A stretch of DNA of 64,000 bases from Psychroflexus tropicus DSM 15496 (GTDB lineage: Bacteria; Bacteroidota; Bacteroidia; Flavobacteriales; Flavobacteriaceae): the NCBI RefSeq assembly GCF_000378765.1, contig NZ_KB905344.1, positions 1 through 64,000 on the forward strand. Direction: 5' to 3'. Positions 15,240 to 55,900 of the stretch are shown here, one piece after another. The number at the start of each line of letters is the position of its first letter. Positions within the stretch are counted from its first letter, which is position 1. Both the position numbers and the translations under genes were made by a program. The notes under the pieces are model-generated. The model was not told the DNA's origin and did no database searches. It saw nothing but the letters and a program-made list of their open reading frames with translations.

Positions 15240-15900
15240 TCAGTGAATAGTGACTAGTGAGTCATAAGCTCCTCGTCTGAGTTTATCTTAAGCAAAGTCG
15301 AAAGGTTCTCGACTTCGCTCGAACTTGAAACAGGAGGATTCTCGACTAAGATTATCTTGAGCATAGACGAAAGGCAAAGTTGAAATAGTTTCTTGATAAT
15401 AAGAATCTGAGGTGAGGTTTTTCTCGACACCCTCCTTGATCCCTGTCTGCAAAAAGGCAGGCTCCCTTACTTCGACAAGCTCAGCACATGCTAGGGAGGA
15501 TATTTGTGCTTACGATCCTCTTGAGGCGGTGCATTGAGCTAAGTCGAAATGGGATGATAGGGGTGTTTAGTTGATTTAGAGCTATAAAGTAGTTGAAGTA
15601 GAAAAAGATATCACTTGAGTTCATCTTGAGCAAGGTCGAAAGGTTTGGAACATAAAAATTTTAGTTATATACTTAGATTTCGTTTTTATACAGAGTTTTT
15701 AATAAACCTTAAAATAAGGTGTGTTTGAACATCGAGCGGAGTCGAGATGGAGCTTAAACACTACTCATTTTATCTTGAGCTATGGTCGGTACGAACTAGA
15801 AACAGTTCCTCTACACCCACCATGTTACTCCCTCAAGGAGAGAAACAATAGATTATCCACTCGAAGCACTAATATAAGTTTAGATTCAAATTTTAATTCA
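15240..15900. repeat. spacer filled with dispersed intergenic repeats
   Basis: No gene is supported in this stretch. It holds copies of repeats that also occur elsewhere in the window. Examples are CTCGACTTCGCTCGAAC near 15310 (relatives near 46535 and 55870), ATCTTGAGCAAGGTCGAAAGG-like pieces near 15350 and 15625, and an AAGGCAGGCTCCCTTACTTC-type piece near 15455-15500 that is related to the repeats at 43065 and 46235. Confidence 0.65.
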
Positions 15901-15934
15901 TGAGAACAAACAAAATTTTAACACCTGTCAATTC

Positions 15935-15964
15935 TTTAACAATTCAATATTATTCCTATGTTTG
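15935..15964 (+). promoter_or_regulatory. trp operon promoter
   Basis: TTTAAC at 15935-15940 stands at the -33 position, and TATGTTTG at 15957-15964 is an exact TAnnTTTG -7 box. The leader-peptide ATG begins only five bases after the box, so transcription should begin at or next to the start codon. Confidence 0.72.
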
Positions 15965-15968
15965 TAGC

Positions 15969-16025
15969 ATGTTTCAAAAAATAAACAATTCTTGGTGGTG
16001 GTCTGTATTACGTCAAACGTCGTGA
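15969..16025 (+). CDS. trpL: trp operon leader peptide
   Basis: The 18-codon reading frame encodes MFQKINNSWWWSVLRQTS. It has three consecutive TGG codons (15993-16001) and ends at TGA 16023-16025, just before a terminator hairpin and trpE. Trp-rich leader peptides sense charged tRNA-Trp by ribosome stalling. From memory, a Bacteroidetes trp-leader RNA family has been described, and this looks like a member. The 3' end of the frame overlaps an antiterminator strand (16019-16026), so a ribosome at the stop codon would mask it. Confidence 0.88.
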   Translation: MFQKINNSWWWSVLRQTS

Positions 16026-16086
16026 TCTAGATCCTGCTATGTATATATTTCATAAAGGCTTGTCAAATCACGACAGGCCTTTTTTA
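16019..16086 (+). promoter_or_regulatory. trp attenuator: antiterminator and terminator
   Basis: The terminator is AAGGCTTGTC (16055-16064) pairing with GACAGGCCTT (16072-16081), one G-U pair, then a T run. The competing pairing is GTCGTGAT (16019-16026) with ATCACGAC (16067-16074), eight perfect pairs that would use the terminator loop and the first bases of its 3' arm. Stalling on the Trp codons leaves 16019-16026 free and should permit read-through. Translation to the stop codon covers it and should permit termination. The mechanism is inferred; the base pairing is seen directly. Confidence 0.85.
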
Positions 16087-16112: not shown

Positions 16113-17498
16113 ATGAGTTATTCTTTAAAAACCACCTACAAAAAGCTGCTTGCCGATACCTTTACGCCGGTTAGCGCTTATCTTAAAATACGGGATAAGT
16201 ATCCCCATTCTCTGCTTCTGGAAAGCAGCGATTACCACACCAATGATAACAGTTTTAGTTACATCTGCTGTAACCCTATCGCGCATTTCAAAGTAGAACA
16301 CGAGCAGATTGAGCTGAAATATCCTGATGGGACTTTTAAACAAATAGAGATAGATCAAAGCATCAACGTCGCCGATGAGCTTAAGAAGTATCTGGCCGAA
16401 TTTGAAGTGGAAGACCATGATTTCAAATTTCTCACGCAAGGGCTGTTTGGATTTACGACTTACGATGCCGTGCGTTATTTTGAAAATTTAAGCATTGATA
16501 AAAGCAGAGCAAAGTTAGGTTTACCAGATATGTTGTACAGCGTGTTTCAAAATGTGATTGTGATCAATCATTTCAACGATGAAGCTTATGTCTTCAATCA
16601 CGCCTACGATGGCACCGATCGTATTCCTGAATTAAAATCTCTCTTAAAAAATCAGAATTATACCGAGTACGATTTTCAATTGGACGGTGAAGAGGAATCA
16701 CCGATTACCGATGAAGAGTTTATGGAGTATGTGACCAAGGCTAAAGCCCATTGCCAGCGAGGTGATGTTTTCCAGATGGTCATGTCACGCCGCTTTTCTC
16801 AAGGATTTAAAGGCGACGAATTCAATGTGTATCGTAAATTGAGAAGCATCAATCCGAGTCCGTATTTATTCTACTTCGACTTTGGAAATTACAAGATTTT
16901 TGGAAGCTCACCGGAAGCTCACCTCGTTGTTCAGGAGGGTAAAGCCGAAATCCATCCTATCGCAGGTACGTTTAAGCGAACCGGAAACGATCAGGAAGAT
17001 GCGGCCATGGCCTTAAAGCTATCTGAAGATGAAAAAGAAAATTCTGAGCACGTGATGTTAGTGGATTTGGCCAGAAATGATCTGAGCCGAAATGGTAAAC
17101 ACGTCAACGTGGAAACTTATAAAGAAGTGCAATACTTTTCTCACGTGATTCACCTGGTGAGTAAAGTGACCGCTGAGGTCAATCCAGAAGATAGTTTAAA
17201 ATTACTGGGCGACACCTTTCCCGCCGGAACATTAAGTGGTGCGCCAAAACACATGGCCATGTCCCTCATTGAGAAGTATGAAAACATCTGTCGAGAGGCC
17301 TACGGTGGAGCTTTGGGTGTGATAGATTTTAATGGTAATATGAATCAGGCCATCATCATTCGTAGTTTTGTGAGTAAAGACATGAAGTTACACTACCAGG
17401 CCGGAGCAGGCGTGGTAAGCGACAGTACCGAAGAAAACGAATTACAGGAAGTCATCAATAAACTTGGAGCTTTACGTAAAGCTTTAGATCAATCATAA
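16113..17498 (+). CDS. trpE: anthranilate synthase component I
   Basis: TrpE converts chorismate and ammonia to anthranilate, the first step of tryptophan synthesis, using ammonia from TrpG. The 461-residue protein has the chorismate-binding motifs GSSPEAH, HPIAGTFKRTG, VDLARNDL and PAGTLSGAPK in order. An LLES segment at residues 35-38 matches the tryptophan feedback site of TrpE, so allosteric inhibition is probably kept alongside attenuation. It is the first structural gene after the attenuator; trpG follows after five bases. Confidence 0.97.
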   Translation: MSYSLKTTYKKLLADTFTPVSAYLKIRDKYPHSLLLESSDYHTNDNSFSYICCNPIAHFKVEHEQIELKYPDGTFKQIEIDQSINVADELKKYLAEFEVEDHDFKFLTQGLFGFTTYDAVRYFENLSIDKSRAKLGLPDMLYSVFQNVIVINHFNDEAYVFNHAYDGTDRIPELKSLLKNQNYTEYDFQLDGEEESPITDEEFMEYVTKAKAHCQRGDVFQMVMSRRFSQGFKGDEFNVYRKLRSINPSPYLFYFDFGNYKIFGSSPEAHLVVQEGKAEIHPIAGTFKRTGNDQEDAAMALKLSEDEKENSEHVMLVDLARNDLSRNGKHVNVETYKEVQYFSHVIHLVSKVTAEVNPEDSLKLLGDTFPAGTLSGAPKHMAMSLIEKYENICREAYGGALGVIDFNGNMNQAIIIRSFVSKDMKLHYQAGAGVVSDSTEENELQEVINKLGALRKALDQS

Positions 17499-17503
17499 AA
17501 ACC

Positions 17504-18070
17504 ATGAAGAACATACTAGTCATAGATAATTACGATTCTTTTGTGTATAACCTTGTACACTATCTGGAAGAATTTGACGCTAAAGTTACGGTGAAGCGTA
17601 ACGATGAAGTCGATCTCGATGAGGTGGCTCATTACGACAAGATCTTGCTTTCTCCCGGACCAGGTATTCCCGACGAAGCAGGCCAATTAAAGGCGATCAT
17701 CAAAGCCTATGCTCACGACAAACCCATGCTTGGGGTGTGTTTAGGTCAGCAAGCGATCATGGAAGTCTTTGGTGGCGAATTGCTGAATTTGGACAAGGTT
17801 CACCACGGTGTGGCGACTGAAATCAAAATGCTGGTAGAAGACGAGGTGCTTTACCAAGGCTTACCCCAAACCATGATGGTAGGCCGTTACCACTCCTGGG
17901 TGGTGAAGCAGAACTTGCCAGATTGTCTGATAGCCACTTCGGTGGACGAGCAGGGTCAGATCATGTCGCTTCGACATAGAGACTACGACATCAGAGCGGT
18001 TCAATTCCATCCGGAATCGGTATTGACGCCAGAAGGCAAACAAATGATTAAAAATTGGATTGAAAGCTAA
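17504..18070 (+). CDS. trpG: anthranilate synthase component II (glutamine amidotransferase)
   Basis: TrpG releases ammonia from glutamine and passes it to TrpE. The 188-residue class I amidotransferase has the nucleophile Cys79 in GVCLGQQA and the His-Glu pair in FHPESVLTPEG near the C terminus. LLSPGPGIP forms the oxyanion loop. It is separate from trpD, not fused. The next start lies 21 bases after its stop. Confidence 0.97.
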   Translation: MKNILVIDNYDSFVYNLVHYLEEFDAKVTVKRNDEVDLDEVAHYDKILLSPGPGIPDEAGQLKAIIKAYAHDKPMLGVCLGQQAIMEVFGGELLNLDKVHHGVATEIKMLVEDEVLYQGLPQTMMVGRYHSWVVKQNLPDCLIATSVDEQGQIMSLRHRDYDIRAVQFHPESVLTPEGKQMIKNWIES

Positions 18071-18091: not shown

Positions 18092-19087
18092 ATGAAAGAT
18101 ATACTTAACCGACTTATACAACAGGAACAGCTTTCAAAAGAAGAGGCTAAAGGGGTATTGCTCCAAATCTCTAACGGAGAATTTAGCGATCTTCAGATCG
18201 CCTCCTTTCTTACCGTGTTTATGATGCGAAGCATCAGCGTGGAAGAACTGGAAGGTTTTAGAGATGCGCTTCTGGAACTTTGCATTCCAGTCGATTTTCA
18301 AGGCGAAACCGTGATGGATTTATGTGGCACCGGTGGTGATGGGCAAAATACCTTCAATGTCTCCACAGCAGCCTCCTTTGTGGTCGCCGCCATGGGAGTG
18401 AAAGTGGCAAAGCACGGTAATTATGGAGTGTCTTCGGTAAGTGGAAGTTCCAACGTGCTGGAAGCGATGGGGATTAAATTTTCAAATGAACAGGGCTTTT
18501 TAGACCGATGTCTTAATGAAGCCAATATTGCCATTCTTCACGCACCCCTCTTTCATCCAGCCATGAAAAACGTAGCACCCATCAGAAAATCACTGGCTTT
18601 AAAAACCTTTTTTAATATGCTAGGGCCTATGGTGAATCCGGCAAAACCAGACTTACAATTGGTAGGGGTTTACGATCTGGAGCTTTTGAGGAAGTACCAT
18701 TATCTGTATCAGAAAACCGATAAGACCTATTGCATTTTACATGATTTGAATCGCTACGATGAAATTTCACTAACGGCTAAAACCAAGTGTGTCACCAAGA
18801 CTCAGGAAATCTTTCTTTCTGCTGAAGATTTTGGAGTGCTCCCTGTCTCAAAAGAGGAAATTTATGGGGGCGATACGGTTGAAAGTGCAGCTGATATTTT
18901 TAATCAAATCCTGAGTGGAAAAGGTACCGAGGCACAAAATAATGTAGTTTGTGCTAATGCTGCCGCGGCTATTTCAACCGCCAAACCTATCTCTATGGAT
19001 GAAGCTTTTGTGGAAGCCAAATCCATCCTTAAAGGTGGCAAAGCCCTTGAAGTCTTGAATCAATTAAAAACCATCAGTCAGTCATGA
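18092..19087 (+). CDS. trpD: anthranilate phosphoribosyltransferase
   Basis: TrpD joins anthranilate to phosphoribosyl pyrophosphate. The 331-residue product has the PRPP-binding DLCGTGGDGQNTFNVST segment and the KHGNYGVSS motif near it, as in the family. A GTG at 18071 is in frame, but ATG 18092 (MKDILNRLIQQEQLS) gives the normal N terminus. Its stop overlaps the trpC start as ATGA, which suggests translational coupling. Confidence 0.96.
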   Translation: MKDILNRLIQQEQLSKEEAKGVLLQISNGEFSDLQIASFLTVFMMRSISVEELEGFRDALLELCIPVDFQGETVMDLCGTGGDGQNTFNVSTAASFVVAAMGVKVAKHGNYGVSSVSGSSNVLEAMGIKFSNEQGFLDRCLNEANIAILHAPLFHPAMKNVAPIRKSLALKTFFNMLGPMVNPAKPDLQLVGVYDLELLRKYHYLYQKTDKTYCILHDLNRYDEISLTAKTKCVTKTQEIFLSAEDFGVLPVSKEEIYGGDTVESAADIFNQILSGKGTEAQNNVVCANAAAAISTAKPISMDEAFVEAKSILKGGKALEVLNQLKTISQS

Positions 19088-19854
19088 AACAGATTTTAGA
19101 AGAAATCATAGGCTACCAACAATTGGTAGTTAATCTTAAGAAAAAAACGATGCCGGTAGAGGTCTTGACTTCTTTCCCTGAATTTAAAGCAGCCACGAGA
19201 AGCTTAAAGCAAGCAGTGGCCAATTCAGAATTAGGCATTATCGCAGAATTTAAAAGACGCTCGCCGAGTAAAGAAACCATCAACTTGAAAGCAGATGTCA
19301 TGGAAATCGCTCAAAGCTACGAGCAAATGGGAGCTGCAGGTATGTCAGTACTGACGAATCAGCGGTATTTTGGAGGGAGTCTGGAGGATTTACAATTGGC
19401 GAAGTCAGTTTGTAGCCTGCCGATCCTTCGGAAAGACTTTATGGTAGATCCTTACCAAATTTATGAAGCCAAAACCTACGGCGCCGATGCCATTCTGTTG
19501 ATTGCTAATGCGCTGTCTCCAGAGAAGCTGGAAGAACTAGCGATTTTAGCTCACGAGTTAGGCCTAGAGATTTTGTTTGAAATCCATGAGGCCGAAGAAA
19601 TCAAGAAACTAGATCCAAAGCATATTGATCTCATTGGGGTGAATAACCGAAACCTCAGAACTTTTGAAGTCGATCTTCAGCAGGGACTAGACATGTTGCC
19701 GCATCTGCCTTCAGAATTATTGAAAATTTCAGAGAGTGGTATTCAGGATCAAGAAACTATCGGGAAACTTATTCATCAGGGATTTAACGGTGTGTTGGTA
19801 GGTGAATTTTTTATGAAACAAAATTCTTTAGAGTCTAATACCAAAGAGCTATGA
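19084..19854 (+). CDS. trpC: indole-3-glycerol phosphate synthase
   Basis: TrpC closes the indole ring from carboxyphenylamino-deoxyribulose phosphate. The 256-residue TIM barrel has the catalytic Lys in AEFKRRSPSK, then LRKDFMVDPYQIYEA, LIGVNNRNLRTFEVD and ISESGI, in family order. It is coupled on both sides by ATGA overlaps (19084-19087 and 19851-19854) and is not fused to trpF. Confidence 0.97.
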   Translation: MKQILEEIIGYQQLVVNLKKKTMPVEVLTSFPEFKAATRSLKQAVANSELGIIAEFKRRSPSKETINLKADVMEIAQSYEQMGAAGMSVLTNQRYFGGSLEDLQLAKSVCSLPILRKDFMVDPYQIYEAKTYGADAILLIANALSPEKLEELAILAHELGLEILFEIHEAEEIKKLDPKHIDLIGVNNRNLRTFEVDLQQGLDMLPHLPSELLKISESGIQDQETIGKLIHQGFNGVLVGEFFMKQNSLESNTKEL

Positions 19855-20492
19855 AAGTGAAAGTCTGTGGGATGAAGCATCCAGAAAATATAAAGGCCCT
19901 GGCAGAATTGGGTATCGATTATATGGGCTTCATATTTTACAAAAAATCACCTCGTTTTGCAGAAAACCCTGTCGAGTTGCCAGAGCGAATTCAAAAAGTA
20001 GGGGTGTTTGTGAATGAAAGCATTGAATCTATCCTTGAAAAAGTCGGAAGTTTTGGTTTAGATATAGTTCAGTTGCACGGTCATGAAACGCCAGAATTCT
20101 GTGAGGAGCTCAATCAGGCTTTAGCCAAATCAGGACATGCTGAGGTGAAACTATGGAAAGTCTTTTCCATTAAAACCGCTTCAGATTTTGAAGGTATAGA
20201 AGCCTATAGCTTTTATGTTCACGGTTACTTACTGGATACCAAAGGCCAATATCGAGGAGGAAACGGTGAAAAATTTGACTGGCAGTTGCTAGAGAAACAG
20301 AATTTCTCTAAGCCTGTGATATTGAGTGGAGGAATTGGTTTAGATGATGCTGCGGAAGTCAGTCATCTGTATAAACAAGGATTGATTGCCGGCGTGGATA
20401 TCAACTCTGGATTTGAAGAGGCCCCTGGATTAAAAAAAGAAACAGAAATACATAAATTTTTACAAAACCTTAGAACCTATGAGCAAGTTTAG
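19851..20492 (+). CDS. trpF: phosphoribosylanthranilate isomerase
   Basis: TrpF carries out the Amadori rearrangement between TrpD and TrpC steps. The 213-residue barrel begins with [11 protein letters not shown], carrying the catalytic Cys, and ends with LSGGIG and [14 protein letters not shown], the phosphate-binding and catalytic Asp segments. It overlaps trpC by four bases and trpB by 14 bases. Confidence 0.96.
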
Positions 20493-21663
20493 TGTCAATG
20501 AAAAGGGATTTTACGGTGATTTTGGTGGAGCTTACATCCCCGAATTGTTGTATCCCAATGTGGAAGAATTAAGACAGAACTACAAGCAGATTATTGCGAC
20601 TGAAGATTTTCAGAAGCAATTCAAGCAGTTGCTGAAAGACTATGTGGGTAGACCTACCCCTTTGTATCTGGCCGAGAACCTAAGTGAAAAATACAAGACC
20701 AAGATCTATTTAAAACGTGAGGATTTGTGTCATACCGGAGCTCATAAAATCAATAATACAGTGGGTCAGATTCTTCTGGCTAAAGCTCTGGGTAAAAACC
20801 GCATCATCGCTGAAACTGGTGCCGGTCAGCACGGTGTGGCTACGGCCACCGTTTGTGCGCTGATGGGTCTGGAATGTATCGTATATATGGGAGCCGTTGA
20901 CATTGAGCGACAATCGCCTAACGTAGCGCGAATGAAAATGCTGGGAGCCAAAGTGGTTTCGGCGACCTCTGGAAGTAAAACGCTGAAGGATGCCACCAAT
21001 GAAGCGATACGCGACTGGATCAACCATCCAAAGGACACGCATTACATCATCGGTTCGGTGGTAGGACCACACCCTTACCCAGATATGGTTACTGAATTGC
21101 AGAGTGTCATTTCCAAGGAAGTAAAAGCCCAGATGCTGGAGAAAGAAGGTCGGGAGTTGCCAGATTACGTCATCGCCTGTGTCGGTGGTGGAAGTAATGC
21201 AGCCGGACTGTTTGCTGACTTTATGGATCACGAAGATGTCGGTATCATAGGAGTGGAAGCTTCAGGAAAAGGGGTGGAAACCACCGAATCTGCGGCTACC
21301 ACTATTTTGGGACGCGAAGGCATCATCCACGGCAGTAAAACCCTCTTGATGCAAAACACCGATGGGCAGATTACCGAGCCGTATTCTATTTCTGCAGGTT
21401 TGGATTATCCAGGTATCGGACCTCTGCATGCGCATCTGTTTAAAACTGGACGAGGTAAGTTTGTGTCGATCACCGATGCGGAAGCCATGGAAAAAGGACT
21501 GGAGCTAAGCCGTATGGAAGGCATCATTCCGGCGATTGAAACCGCTCATGCCTTTGCGATTTTCAAATATCTGAATTTCAAAGAAGATGATGTGCTGGTT
21601 TTTAACTGCTCCGGGCGTGGAGATAAGGATCTAGAGACCTACAGGCAGTATTTTGGGTACTAG
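20479..21663 (+). CDS. trpB: tryptophan synthase beta chain
   Basis: TrpB joins indole and serine using pyridoxal phosphate. The 394-residue protein is full length. The PLP lysine is in [19 protein letters not shown] is the substrate loop, VGGGSNAAG binds the phosphate, and a C-terminal CSGRGDKD segment is present. Normally trpA follows directly, and TrpA and TrpB form a complex; here a 426-bp repeat-filled spacer separates them. Confidence 0.98.
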
Positions 21664-21744
21664 AACGTAGGCTTTAGGTGGTAGGGTTTTGGAAAAGAGA
21701 GCAAAGAGTCAGGAACCAAGAAACAAGACAAAATTGATTAGAAC

Positions 21745-22016
21745 TAAGTGCCCTTCGTGCCTCCGTGTTAGAATTGCACCACAAAGGCACAGAGATCACA
21801 GAGAAAAGTTTAAAACTTGGTGTCCTTCGTGACTCCGTGGTAAGAAAAAAACATGAAACAGAGAATACCGAAACTATTGAAACTACACCTCTGTGAACTT
21901 AGCGACTTTGCGGTGAGATAAAATTTGAAGGCTAATGTTTCACCACAGAGGAACGAAGAGCACTGAGAAAAATGATATTTTAAAACTTGGTGACCTCTGT
22001 GACTTTGTGGTAAAAA
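21745..22016. repeat. palindromic dispersed repeats between trpB and trpA
   Basis: Two direct copies (about 21776-21843 and 21939-22016) each contain CACCACARAGG followed by CTTGGTG-CC-GTGAC-CCGTGGT, which fold back on each other. A third partial copy is at 21745-21775. This resembles a palindromic family with CCTTCGTGACTCCGTGG cores found in many bacterial genomes. There is no gene here, and no promoter box that I can see before trpA. Confidence 0.8.
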
Positions 22017-22089
22017 ATGCATCTGATAAAATAAAAAAGAACGATAATTTATAACGCAATTATCGAACGATAACAAACTTAACTAACAC

Positions 22090-22854
22090 ATGAATAGAAT
22101 AAATAAAGCTTTAGCACAAGACAAAAAATTGATTTCCATTTACTTCACCGCTGGCTATCCAAAGTTGGAAGACACGACCGAAGTCATTAAGCGACTAACA
22201 GCTGCAGGTACCGACGTAATTGAAATCGGTTTGCCTTACAGCGACCCTTTAGCCGACGGACCGGTGATTCAAAAAAGCTCGGAGCAGGCCCTTAGAAATG
22301 GGATGAGTACCCAGGTTTTATTTGACCAGTTAAAGGGTATTCGCGATACTGTAGATATTCCCCTGATCGTGATGGGTTATTTCAATGCGATGCTGCAATA
22401 TGGCGTTGAAGATTTTTGCAAGGAATGCGAGGCGATTGGGATCGACGGAATCATTATGCCCGATTTGCCAATTGATATTTTTGAGAGGGATTATAAGGCA
22501 TTGTTTGATGATCATGGGTTGAAGTTTGTACCCCTGATTACCCCAGAAACTTCAGAGGAGCGTATCCAAACCATCGATGCGCTTGGCGATAGCTTTGTGT
22601 ATATGGTCAGTTCGTCTAGTACTACAGGAGGTGAAAAGGGATTTGGTGAAGAAGCCATGTCGTATTTTAAACGCATTTCCGATATGCAGCTAAGCAACAA
22701 ACTGATGGTAGGCTTTGGGATTAAAGATGCTTTGAGCTTCGAGCAGGCCAGTCGACACACCAGTGGCTGTATCATTGGTTCGGAATTTATTCGAAGATTG
22801 ACTAATGAAGGCATGGAGGGGATTGAGCCGTTTATTAAGTCGCTGAAACAGTGA
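22090..22854 (+). CDS. trpA: tryptophan synthase alpha chain
   Basis: TrpA splits indole-3-glycerol phosphate and channels indole to TrpB. The 254-residue barrel has the catalytic Glu in IEIGLPYSDPLADGP and the catalytic Asp in IIMPDLP, followed by VSSSSTTGG and GFGI phosphate-binding segments. It is the last trp gene. It lies downstream of a repeat-filled gap, which may lower or uncouple its expression from trpB. Its TGA stop is the beginning of a long heptad array. Confidence 0.97.
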   Translation: MNRINKALAQDKKLISIYFTAGYPKLEDTTEVIKRLTAAGTDVIEIGLPYSDPLADGPVIQKSSEQALRNGMSTQVLFDQLKGIRDTVDIPLIVMGYFNAMLQYGVEDFCKECEAIGIDGIIMPDLPIDIFERDYKALFDDHGLKFVPLITPETSEERIQTIDALGDSFVYMVSSSSTTGGEKGFGEEAMSYFKRISDMQLSNKLMVGFGIKDALSFEQASRHTSGCIIGSEFIRRLTNEGMEGIEPFIKSLKQ

Positions 22855-46284: not shown

Positions 46285-46593
46285 CTTCGACAAGCTCAGC
46301 ACAGGCCAGGGAGGAATGTTAAACATTTTCCCTCGAGGCAATGTGCTGAGCTAGGTCGAAGTAGAAATGCCGCTAGGCAAAGGGTGTTGGAGATCTTCAA
46401 AACACACCCAACCCTAACCCTTCCCTCAATGGAAGGGAACTAAGAAACTTTCCCTTGAGGCGATGTGCAGCCCTCACTCCTTCAGGATAAACTTTGACGA
46501 AGTAAAGTCAAGATGCACTTAATCATAATTATGCAAAAGTTCTCGACTCCGCTCGAACATAAACAAAAGGAAAAAACTATTTTTGATCTAGTA

Positions 46594-55865: not shown

Positions 55866-55900
55866 AGTTCGAGCGGAGTCGAGAACCATTTACATCTCGA
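55866..55900 (+). repeat. TTCGAGCGGAGTCGAGA dispersed repeat
   Basis: GTTCGAGCGGAGTCGAGAAC is an imperfect palindrome also seen in inverse form near 15310 and 46535. It lies in the 284-bp gap between the MBOAT gene and its likely partner; no gene in the gap. Confidence 0.7.

Follow-up and report, generated by a model that had tools for sequence, protein, structure and literature searches.

Upstream of trpE in Psychroflexus tropicus DSM 15496, within a stretch of 64,000 nt that was analysed as a whole (the window), we found an element that can with good confidence be read as a ribosome-mediated tryptophan attenuator, probably leaderless, in which a strand near the end of the leader ORF (strand a) would seize the loop of the intrinsic terminator together with the tip of its 3' arm (strand a'). 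In the mechanism we propose, transcription probably begins on the A of the leader ATG, and the ribosome would load directly at the 5' end, there being no untranslated leader. In the absence of translation, strand a would be held by a protector hairpin based on the Trp codons, and the terminator would form. With ample Trp-tRNA, the ribosome would reach the stop codon and cover strand a, which would again let the terminator form. When Trp-tRNA is scarce, the ribosome would stall at the three Trp codons and open the protector; the freed strand a could then capture the emerging loop and 3'-arm tip (16067-16074) before the terminator closes, and once this pairing (a:a') has formed, RNA polymerase would read into trpE.

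The locus is a real member of a known motif, and its working parts are now better resolved. An Rfam profile search matched positions 15950-16064 (plus strand) to RF01692 (Bacteroid-trp) with 58.3 bits, above the gathering score of 49, and no other match reached E <= 1 in the same genome. A sequence-only reading of the same DNA had referred to a Bacteroidetes trp-leader motif and suggested searching with its covariance model, and on this point it was right. The match contains a short ORF with Trp codons 5' of tryptophan biosynthesis genes and ends 48 bp before the start of trpE, and a consensus scan places an intrinsic terminator between leader and trpE. The first structural gene, trpE (16113-17498, plus strand), is followed by trpG (17504-18070), trpD (ending at 19087), trpC (19084-19854), trpF (19851-20492), trpB (20479-21663) and, after a gap, trpA (22090-22854). 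Match and operon position together bear out the earlier proposal of a Trp-codon attenuator ahead of trpE. The Trp attenuator is of a known kind, the novelty residing in the variant and not in attenuation. The genes from trpE to trpB are closely packed; the 426 bp between trpB and trpA (21664-22089) contain short ORFs only. TrpE itself shows 88-94% similarity to the proteins of seven Psychroflexus loci and at most 66% to those of the 72 others returned.

Weinberg et al. (2010, PMC2864571) included Bacteroid-trp among their candidate cis-regulatory RNAs, in a paper whose main text, by a term search, has the motif once, in a table, and does not use the word "leaderless". The motif has also been noted 5' of the F. 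psychrophilum trp operon, with an attenuation reading (PMC6414381), and the F. psychrophilum transcriptome provided strong clues for leader-peptide attenuation 5' of amino-acid operons (PMC9723704), as far as the consulted sections of these two articles go. Like RF01692, the window has a Trp-rich leader, a hairpin and a position before trp genes. The Rfam model ends at the 5' arm of the terminator, before the loop, so that the closed terminator and the a:a' antiterminator both lie outside it; our analysis supplies an antiterminator to a motif whose model has none.

The translated leader ORF, MFQKINNSWWWSVLRQTS, extends over 15969-16025 (plus strand; ATG at 15969, stop codon TGA at 16023-16025) and does contain the three Trp codons noticed at first reading (TGG TGG TGG, 15993-16001, plus strand); Trp runs are present in its relatives too. 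Strand a, GTCGTGAT (16019-16026, plus strand), is the 5' strand of the antiterminator. It pairs exactly over 8 bp with strand a', ATCACGAC (16067-16074, plus strand), just as had been claimed, and a' consists of the last 5 nt of the terminator loop and the first 3 nt of the 3' arm. The intrinsic terminator is present at 16054-16082 (plus strand), where the consensus scan finds 11 pairs and not the 10 reported before, a loop of 7 and a T run thereafter. The 8-bp pattern at that spacing, which was picked post hoc, is unique in the window and absent from all 100 shuffles.

Further evidence comes from the comparison of leaders. In a phylum sample, 47 of 395 genomes gave RF01692 matches (E <= 0.01; 38 above the family cut-off), the leaders obtained by this profile search leaning towards those that resemble the Rfam model. 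A TrpE search yielded 79 named loci, 11 of them from Actinobacteria; upstream of trpE, 61 of these loci showed a W-rich short ORF, that of L084 being judged spurious later. Of 41 genomes in a family sample, mostly one per genus, 39 had TrpE, and 37 of these also had a leader. The pooled set comprised 145 loci, which came down to 140 unique leaders, as identical leaders were merged before counting (L031 and L048, one of them from Psychroflexus curvus, probably represent one genome), and to 138 leaders with a terminator, after L283 (no terminator by the rule used) and L084 (ORF inside another gene) had been dropped.

Strands a and a' change together in the relatives (GTCGTAAGG/CTTTACGGC, ATCGAGTGAT/ATCACTCGAT, CCGGGTGA/TCACCCGG, ATCGTAAA/TTTACGAT and others). 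The 122 leaders with a:a' comprise 43 different a/a' pairs; the other 16 of the 138 show no a:a' at the chosen position and score, the score threshold and the window of 12-24 nt having been set after the first tables. When leaders and terminators were re-paired, with an identical best-stem rule for real and re-paired sequences, the true a:a' complementarity stood out with a z value of 7.8 over 37 distinct a' cores (0 of 10,000 permutations as high) and, with a wider window, of 8.6 over 50 types; these and all further z values are indicative, since related species are not independent. The idea that the pairing competes with the terminator has thereby gained ground: a' is made of loop and 3'-arm tip, and it covaries across the phylum.

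The signal depends on the distance from the last Trp codon. Its z value is 0.2 for the window 4-18 nt past this codon, 3.3 for 8-22 nt and 7.5 for 12-26 nt, peaks at 9.0 for 16-30 nt and then falls to 6.2 (20-34 nt) and 1.7 (24-38 nt); windows up to 18 nt have z values of at most 0.5, and those from 24 nt on of at most 1.7. When its position was not constrained, the start of strand a fell 15-21 nt downstream of the last Trp codon in 115 of the 119 leaders scoring at least 12 (L084 left out); here the distance is 17 nt. Relative to the stop codon, strand a lies well before, over or after it, depending on the species. Overlap with the stop codon was considered as an essential feature and rejected, as the distance to the Trp codons is kept while the stop moves. 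The first reading had made much of this overlap, and the TGA at 16023-16025 does lie inside strand a here, but it is the distance of 15-21 nt that is conserved and not the overlap.

Folding revealed a third structure that was absent from the earlier reading, namely a protector hairpin sequestering strand a. Without a ribosome, the leader of the window folds with -19.1 kcal/mol into a main hairpin at 15993-16039 (plus strand), located within the Rfam hairpin region, in which strand a is held by strand a'' (ATTACG, 16007-16012, plus strand) through pairing with 16021-16026 at the apex. Comparative support for the protector comes from the complementarity of the Trp codons' region to the segment that follows strand a (z 4.7, 65 types) and of a'' to a (z 3.9 for 38 types; z 7.5 for 108 distinct leader ends, a set with many related members). 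In many relatives the peptide end LRQTS is kept, presumably because its codons carry a'' and a.

We then considered the fold in each ribosome state. For RNA of the window extending to 16074-16078, the probability of a:a' was 0.94-0.99 for a stall at the Trp codons (ribosome edges being assumed), 0 for a ribosome at the stop codon and 0-0.11 without a ribosome. Across the 122 leaders, incomplete RNA reached an a:a' probability above 0.5 in 120 cases when the ribosome was stalled and in none when it was at the stop codon; without a ribosome, 47 of the 122 folded to a:a' instead of the protector, so a protector that wins in every species without a ribosome was not borne out. If a footprint of -18 to +12 is assumed, strand a is completely covered by a ribosome at the stop codon in 119 of the 122 leaders; that it is clear of a ribosome at the last Trp codon in all 122 results from the position filter and is no evidence. 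Taken together, the sequence, the covariation, the folding of incomplete RNA and the assumed footprint point to an antiterminator that is exposed only upon a stall at the Trp codons.

Once the full terminator has been made, a:a' exceeds a probability of 0.5 in just 3 of the 122 leaders with a stalled ribosome (0-0.12 in the window), and at equilibrium the full RNA favours the terminator in all ribosome states. As the complete terminator wins at equilibrium, a:a' would have to act kinetically or as a pseudoknot. The strand order (a, 5' arm, a', rest of the 3' arm) is indeed that of a pseudoknot, and in 106 of the 122 leaders strand a takes just 2-4 nt of the 3' arm, which leaves most of the terminator stem free. 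Both features, and the equilibrium result, would suit a structure in which a:a' and the lower terminator stem coexist and which would hinder or delay termination without replacing the terminator; we regard this as rather improbable, its steric feasibility following from reasoning and not from the folding program, which cannot model pseudoknots. We retain capture of loop and 3'-arm tip ahead of terminator closure as the preferred reading, the kinetic order being what we infer from the folds of incomplete RNA.

On the plus strand between 15187 and the ATG there is a single TAnnTTTG sequence, the -7 box TATGTTTG at 15957-15964, which is separated from the leader ATG by 4 nt (15965-15968); the earlier description of a box ending five bases before the ATG refers to the same four intervening bases. 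Boxes of this type are no more common in the window than expected by chance (81 found vs 79 expected), so that the meaning of TATGTTTG rests on its conserved position: in an alignment of eight Psychroflexus leaders, that of the window included, box, ATG and 4-nt spacing are kept in all eight, though the bases of the spacer vary. In F. psychrophilum, the TAnnTTTG box sits at -12 to -5 from the start site, according to the part of the transcriptome study that was consulted (PMC9723704). This placement, combined with the 4-nt gap, puts the predicted transcription start (+1) on the A of the leader ATG (15969, plus strand), and the leader transcript is here probably leaderless.

Two further elements were seen in the upstream region. 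A block at 15913-15928 (AAATTTTAACA..TGT), located 28 nt 5' of the -7 box, is invariant in all eight Psychroflexus leaders; it seems far for the usual -33 element and is perhaps an upstream element or a regulator site. Four copies of a palindrome-like repeat, TCGAGCGGAGTCGAG, with at most 2 mismatches, are present in the window (15308-15322, 15732-15746, 46542-46556 and 55869-55883; 0.03 expected by chance). One of them precedes the trp promoter, a region in which some relatives have similar words.

In the pooled set, 124 of the 138 trp leaders have a perfect box within 45 nt of the ATG. The gap is 4 nt in 16 leaders, 5 nt in 25 and 4-9 nt in a total of 71. Where in-frame ATGs competed, the choice was manual in the phylum set and fell on the most downstream one in the one-per-genus set; in the named set, the candidates were ATGs with a box within 40 nt and the downstream one was taken, except for six loci (L070, L083, L089, L095, L107 and L114) in which the upstream ATG was picked by hand. 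These rules may slightly favour short gaps. In shuffled upstream sequence (200 rounds), a gap of 4-9 nt was obtained in a mean of 1.3 leaders, the largest value being 6. A further 43 of the 138 leaders have their box 16-23 nt from the ATG, and the notion of an entirely leaderless family was rejected on these grounds. The leaderless start proposed at first reading is therefore probable for the window, given gap and box placement, but does not extend to the whole family: leaderless or near-leaderless trp leaders are frequent and recurrent, not universal. In the family sample, perfect boxes at most 9 nt from the ATG occur in 15 of 37 trp, 5 of 32 his and 1 of 30 phe leaders; these counts cover perfect boxes only, and boxes with one mismatch are found at 7-9 nt in six further his leaders, at 4 nt in the trp leader L254 and in some phe leaders. 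On a quick TrpE tree of 113 rows, which has several long branches, near (<= 9 nt) and far boxes require at least nine changes, six of which are forced by well supported branches.

The sole plus-strand box at 4 nt, its exact spacing in the eight Psychroflexus leaders and the scarcity of SD-like words in the 20 nt upstream of the ATG (6 of 138 trp leaders) all speak against a short 5' UTR, with transcription starting further upstream or the box unused and the leader being read like other Bacteroidota genes. We consider such a start unlikely, although it would accord with the 43 trp leaders whose box lies at 16-23 nt, with the far boxes of many his and phe leaders (one-mismatch boxes counted) and with the small share of leaderless mRNAs in two mapped relatives. 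In the consulted portions of the respective studies, this share is put at 5.5% of 890 mapped transcripts in F. psychrophilum (PMC9723704), and about 3.7% of the 5' UTRs are under 10 nt in B. thetaiotaomicron (PMC7366714).

The trp attenuator of E. coli has the same general components, that is, a leader with Trp codons, protector, antiterminator and terminator, and likewise a choice made by ribosome position. Its antiterminator takes the 5' arm of the terminator and its leader has a ribosome-binding site, whereas the switch of the window would capture the loop and the 3'-arm tip, and its transcript probably lacks an untranslated leader. For trp leaders, complementarity to the 5' arm barely exceeds that of re-paired sequences (z 0.5 and 1.6, and 2.0 just after strand a), as opposed to 7.8-8.6 for loop and 3' tip. 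The data did not establish an additional helix that would join a CCT element 3' of strand a to the 5' arm of the terminator (z 2.0). Judged by sequence comparison, the trp switch would work like the classical one but is built differently. Among the 16 leaders noted above as showing no a:a', four from another family (L040, L041, L044 and L046) have GGCAGCCT or GGCAACCT pairing with the 5' arm. These four, the 5'-arm pairing of Flavobacteriaceae his and phe leaders and a few 5'-arm bases also caught in the stalled fold of the window are what an E. coli-type attenuator, with strand 2 pairing with the 5' arm and a:a' as a by-product of protector and peptide sequence, has in its favour, but we hold it to be very unlikely in view of the z values just given and because a' lies outside both the Rfam model and the protector, so that protector pairing does not explain its covariation.

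The his and phe attenuators of the Flavobacteriaceae resemble the trp attenuators in having runs of the regulated amino acid and a terminator; unlike the latter, they carry an upstream strand that is complementary to the 5' arm. His and phe leaders served as topology control (ilv leaders and the homoserine dehydrogenase loci of the thr operon were left out, and L199, L209 and L290 were dropped from the phe set as not being phe leaders). Pairing with loop and 3' tip had z values of -2.2 in his (32 leaders, 22 types) and -1.1 in phe leaders (30 leaders, 24 types). Complementarity to the 5' arm reached a z value of 7.3 in phe leaders; in his leaders the cognate mean was 14.4 vs 8.5 for the loop, and the low z value of 1.5 probably reflects the close similarity of the his sequences. 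On this comparative evidence, the trp switch has its own topology, with L040, L041, L044 and L046 as exceptions. Amino-acid attenuation would hence be built with two antiterminator topologies inside one bacterial family.

A leaderless attenuator as such is not new. In S. meliloti, the transcript of the Trp attenuator trpL (rnTrpL) begins at the ATG of the leader ORF and is a leaderless small mRNA, as described in the part of the publication we used (PMC7298713). By the same source, trpL is an alphaproteobacterial system with a 14-aa peptide and roles in trans, and its likeness to the window is one of design. For Bacteroidota, we recognised neither a leaderless trp leader nor a loop-capturing antiterminator in the literature covered, most subscription papers being outside its scope; the work of Lopatovskaya et al. 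on attenuation of amino-acid operons may cover these leaders. Whether the Bacteroidota possess a separate architecture, combining a leaderless or near-leaderless ORF (in about half of the leaders) with an antiterminator that takes loop and 3' tip, lies 15-21 nt past the last Trp codon and acts as a kinetic, pseudoknot-like block, alongside classical 5'-arm his and phe attenuators, is in our estimation an evenly balanced question. The leaders form a natural series in which the same switch comes with a predicted 5' UTR of either about 0-5 nt or about 12-19 nt, and this series bears on how Shine-Dalgarno-independent ribosomes load fast enough for attenuation.

The length ahead of the sensing codons is fixed in most leaders. 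The first Trp is residue nine in 103 of 139 trp leaders, both near- and far-box variants among them, and the run in his leaders is mostly preceded by six residues. The genome that contains the window has a second near-leaderless attenuator 5' of hisG (L149), with the His leader MKNLNLHHHISNTL and the box TAAATTTG 7 nt before the ATG, and this is among the five near-box his leaders counted above. A Phe-rich leader, MSARFYFYYNFYFAIPAKRG, is located 5' of the prephenate dehydratase gene of the same genome (L286), with its box TAATTTAG at a gap of 18 nt from the ATG. Boxes of the TAnnTTAG type, farther from the ATG, are present in many phe leaders of this family and may mark a different promoter type.
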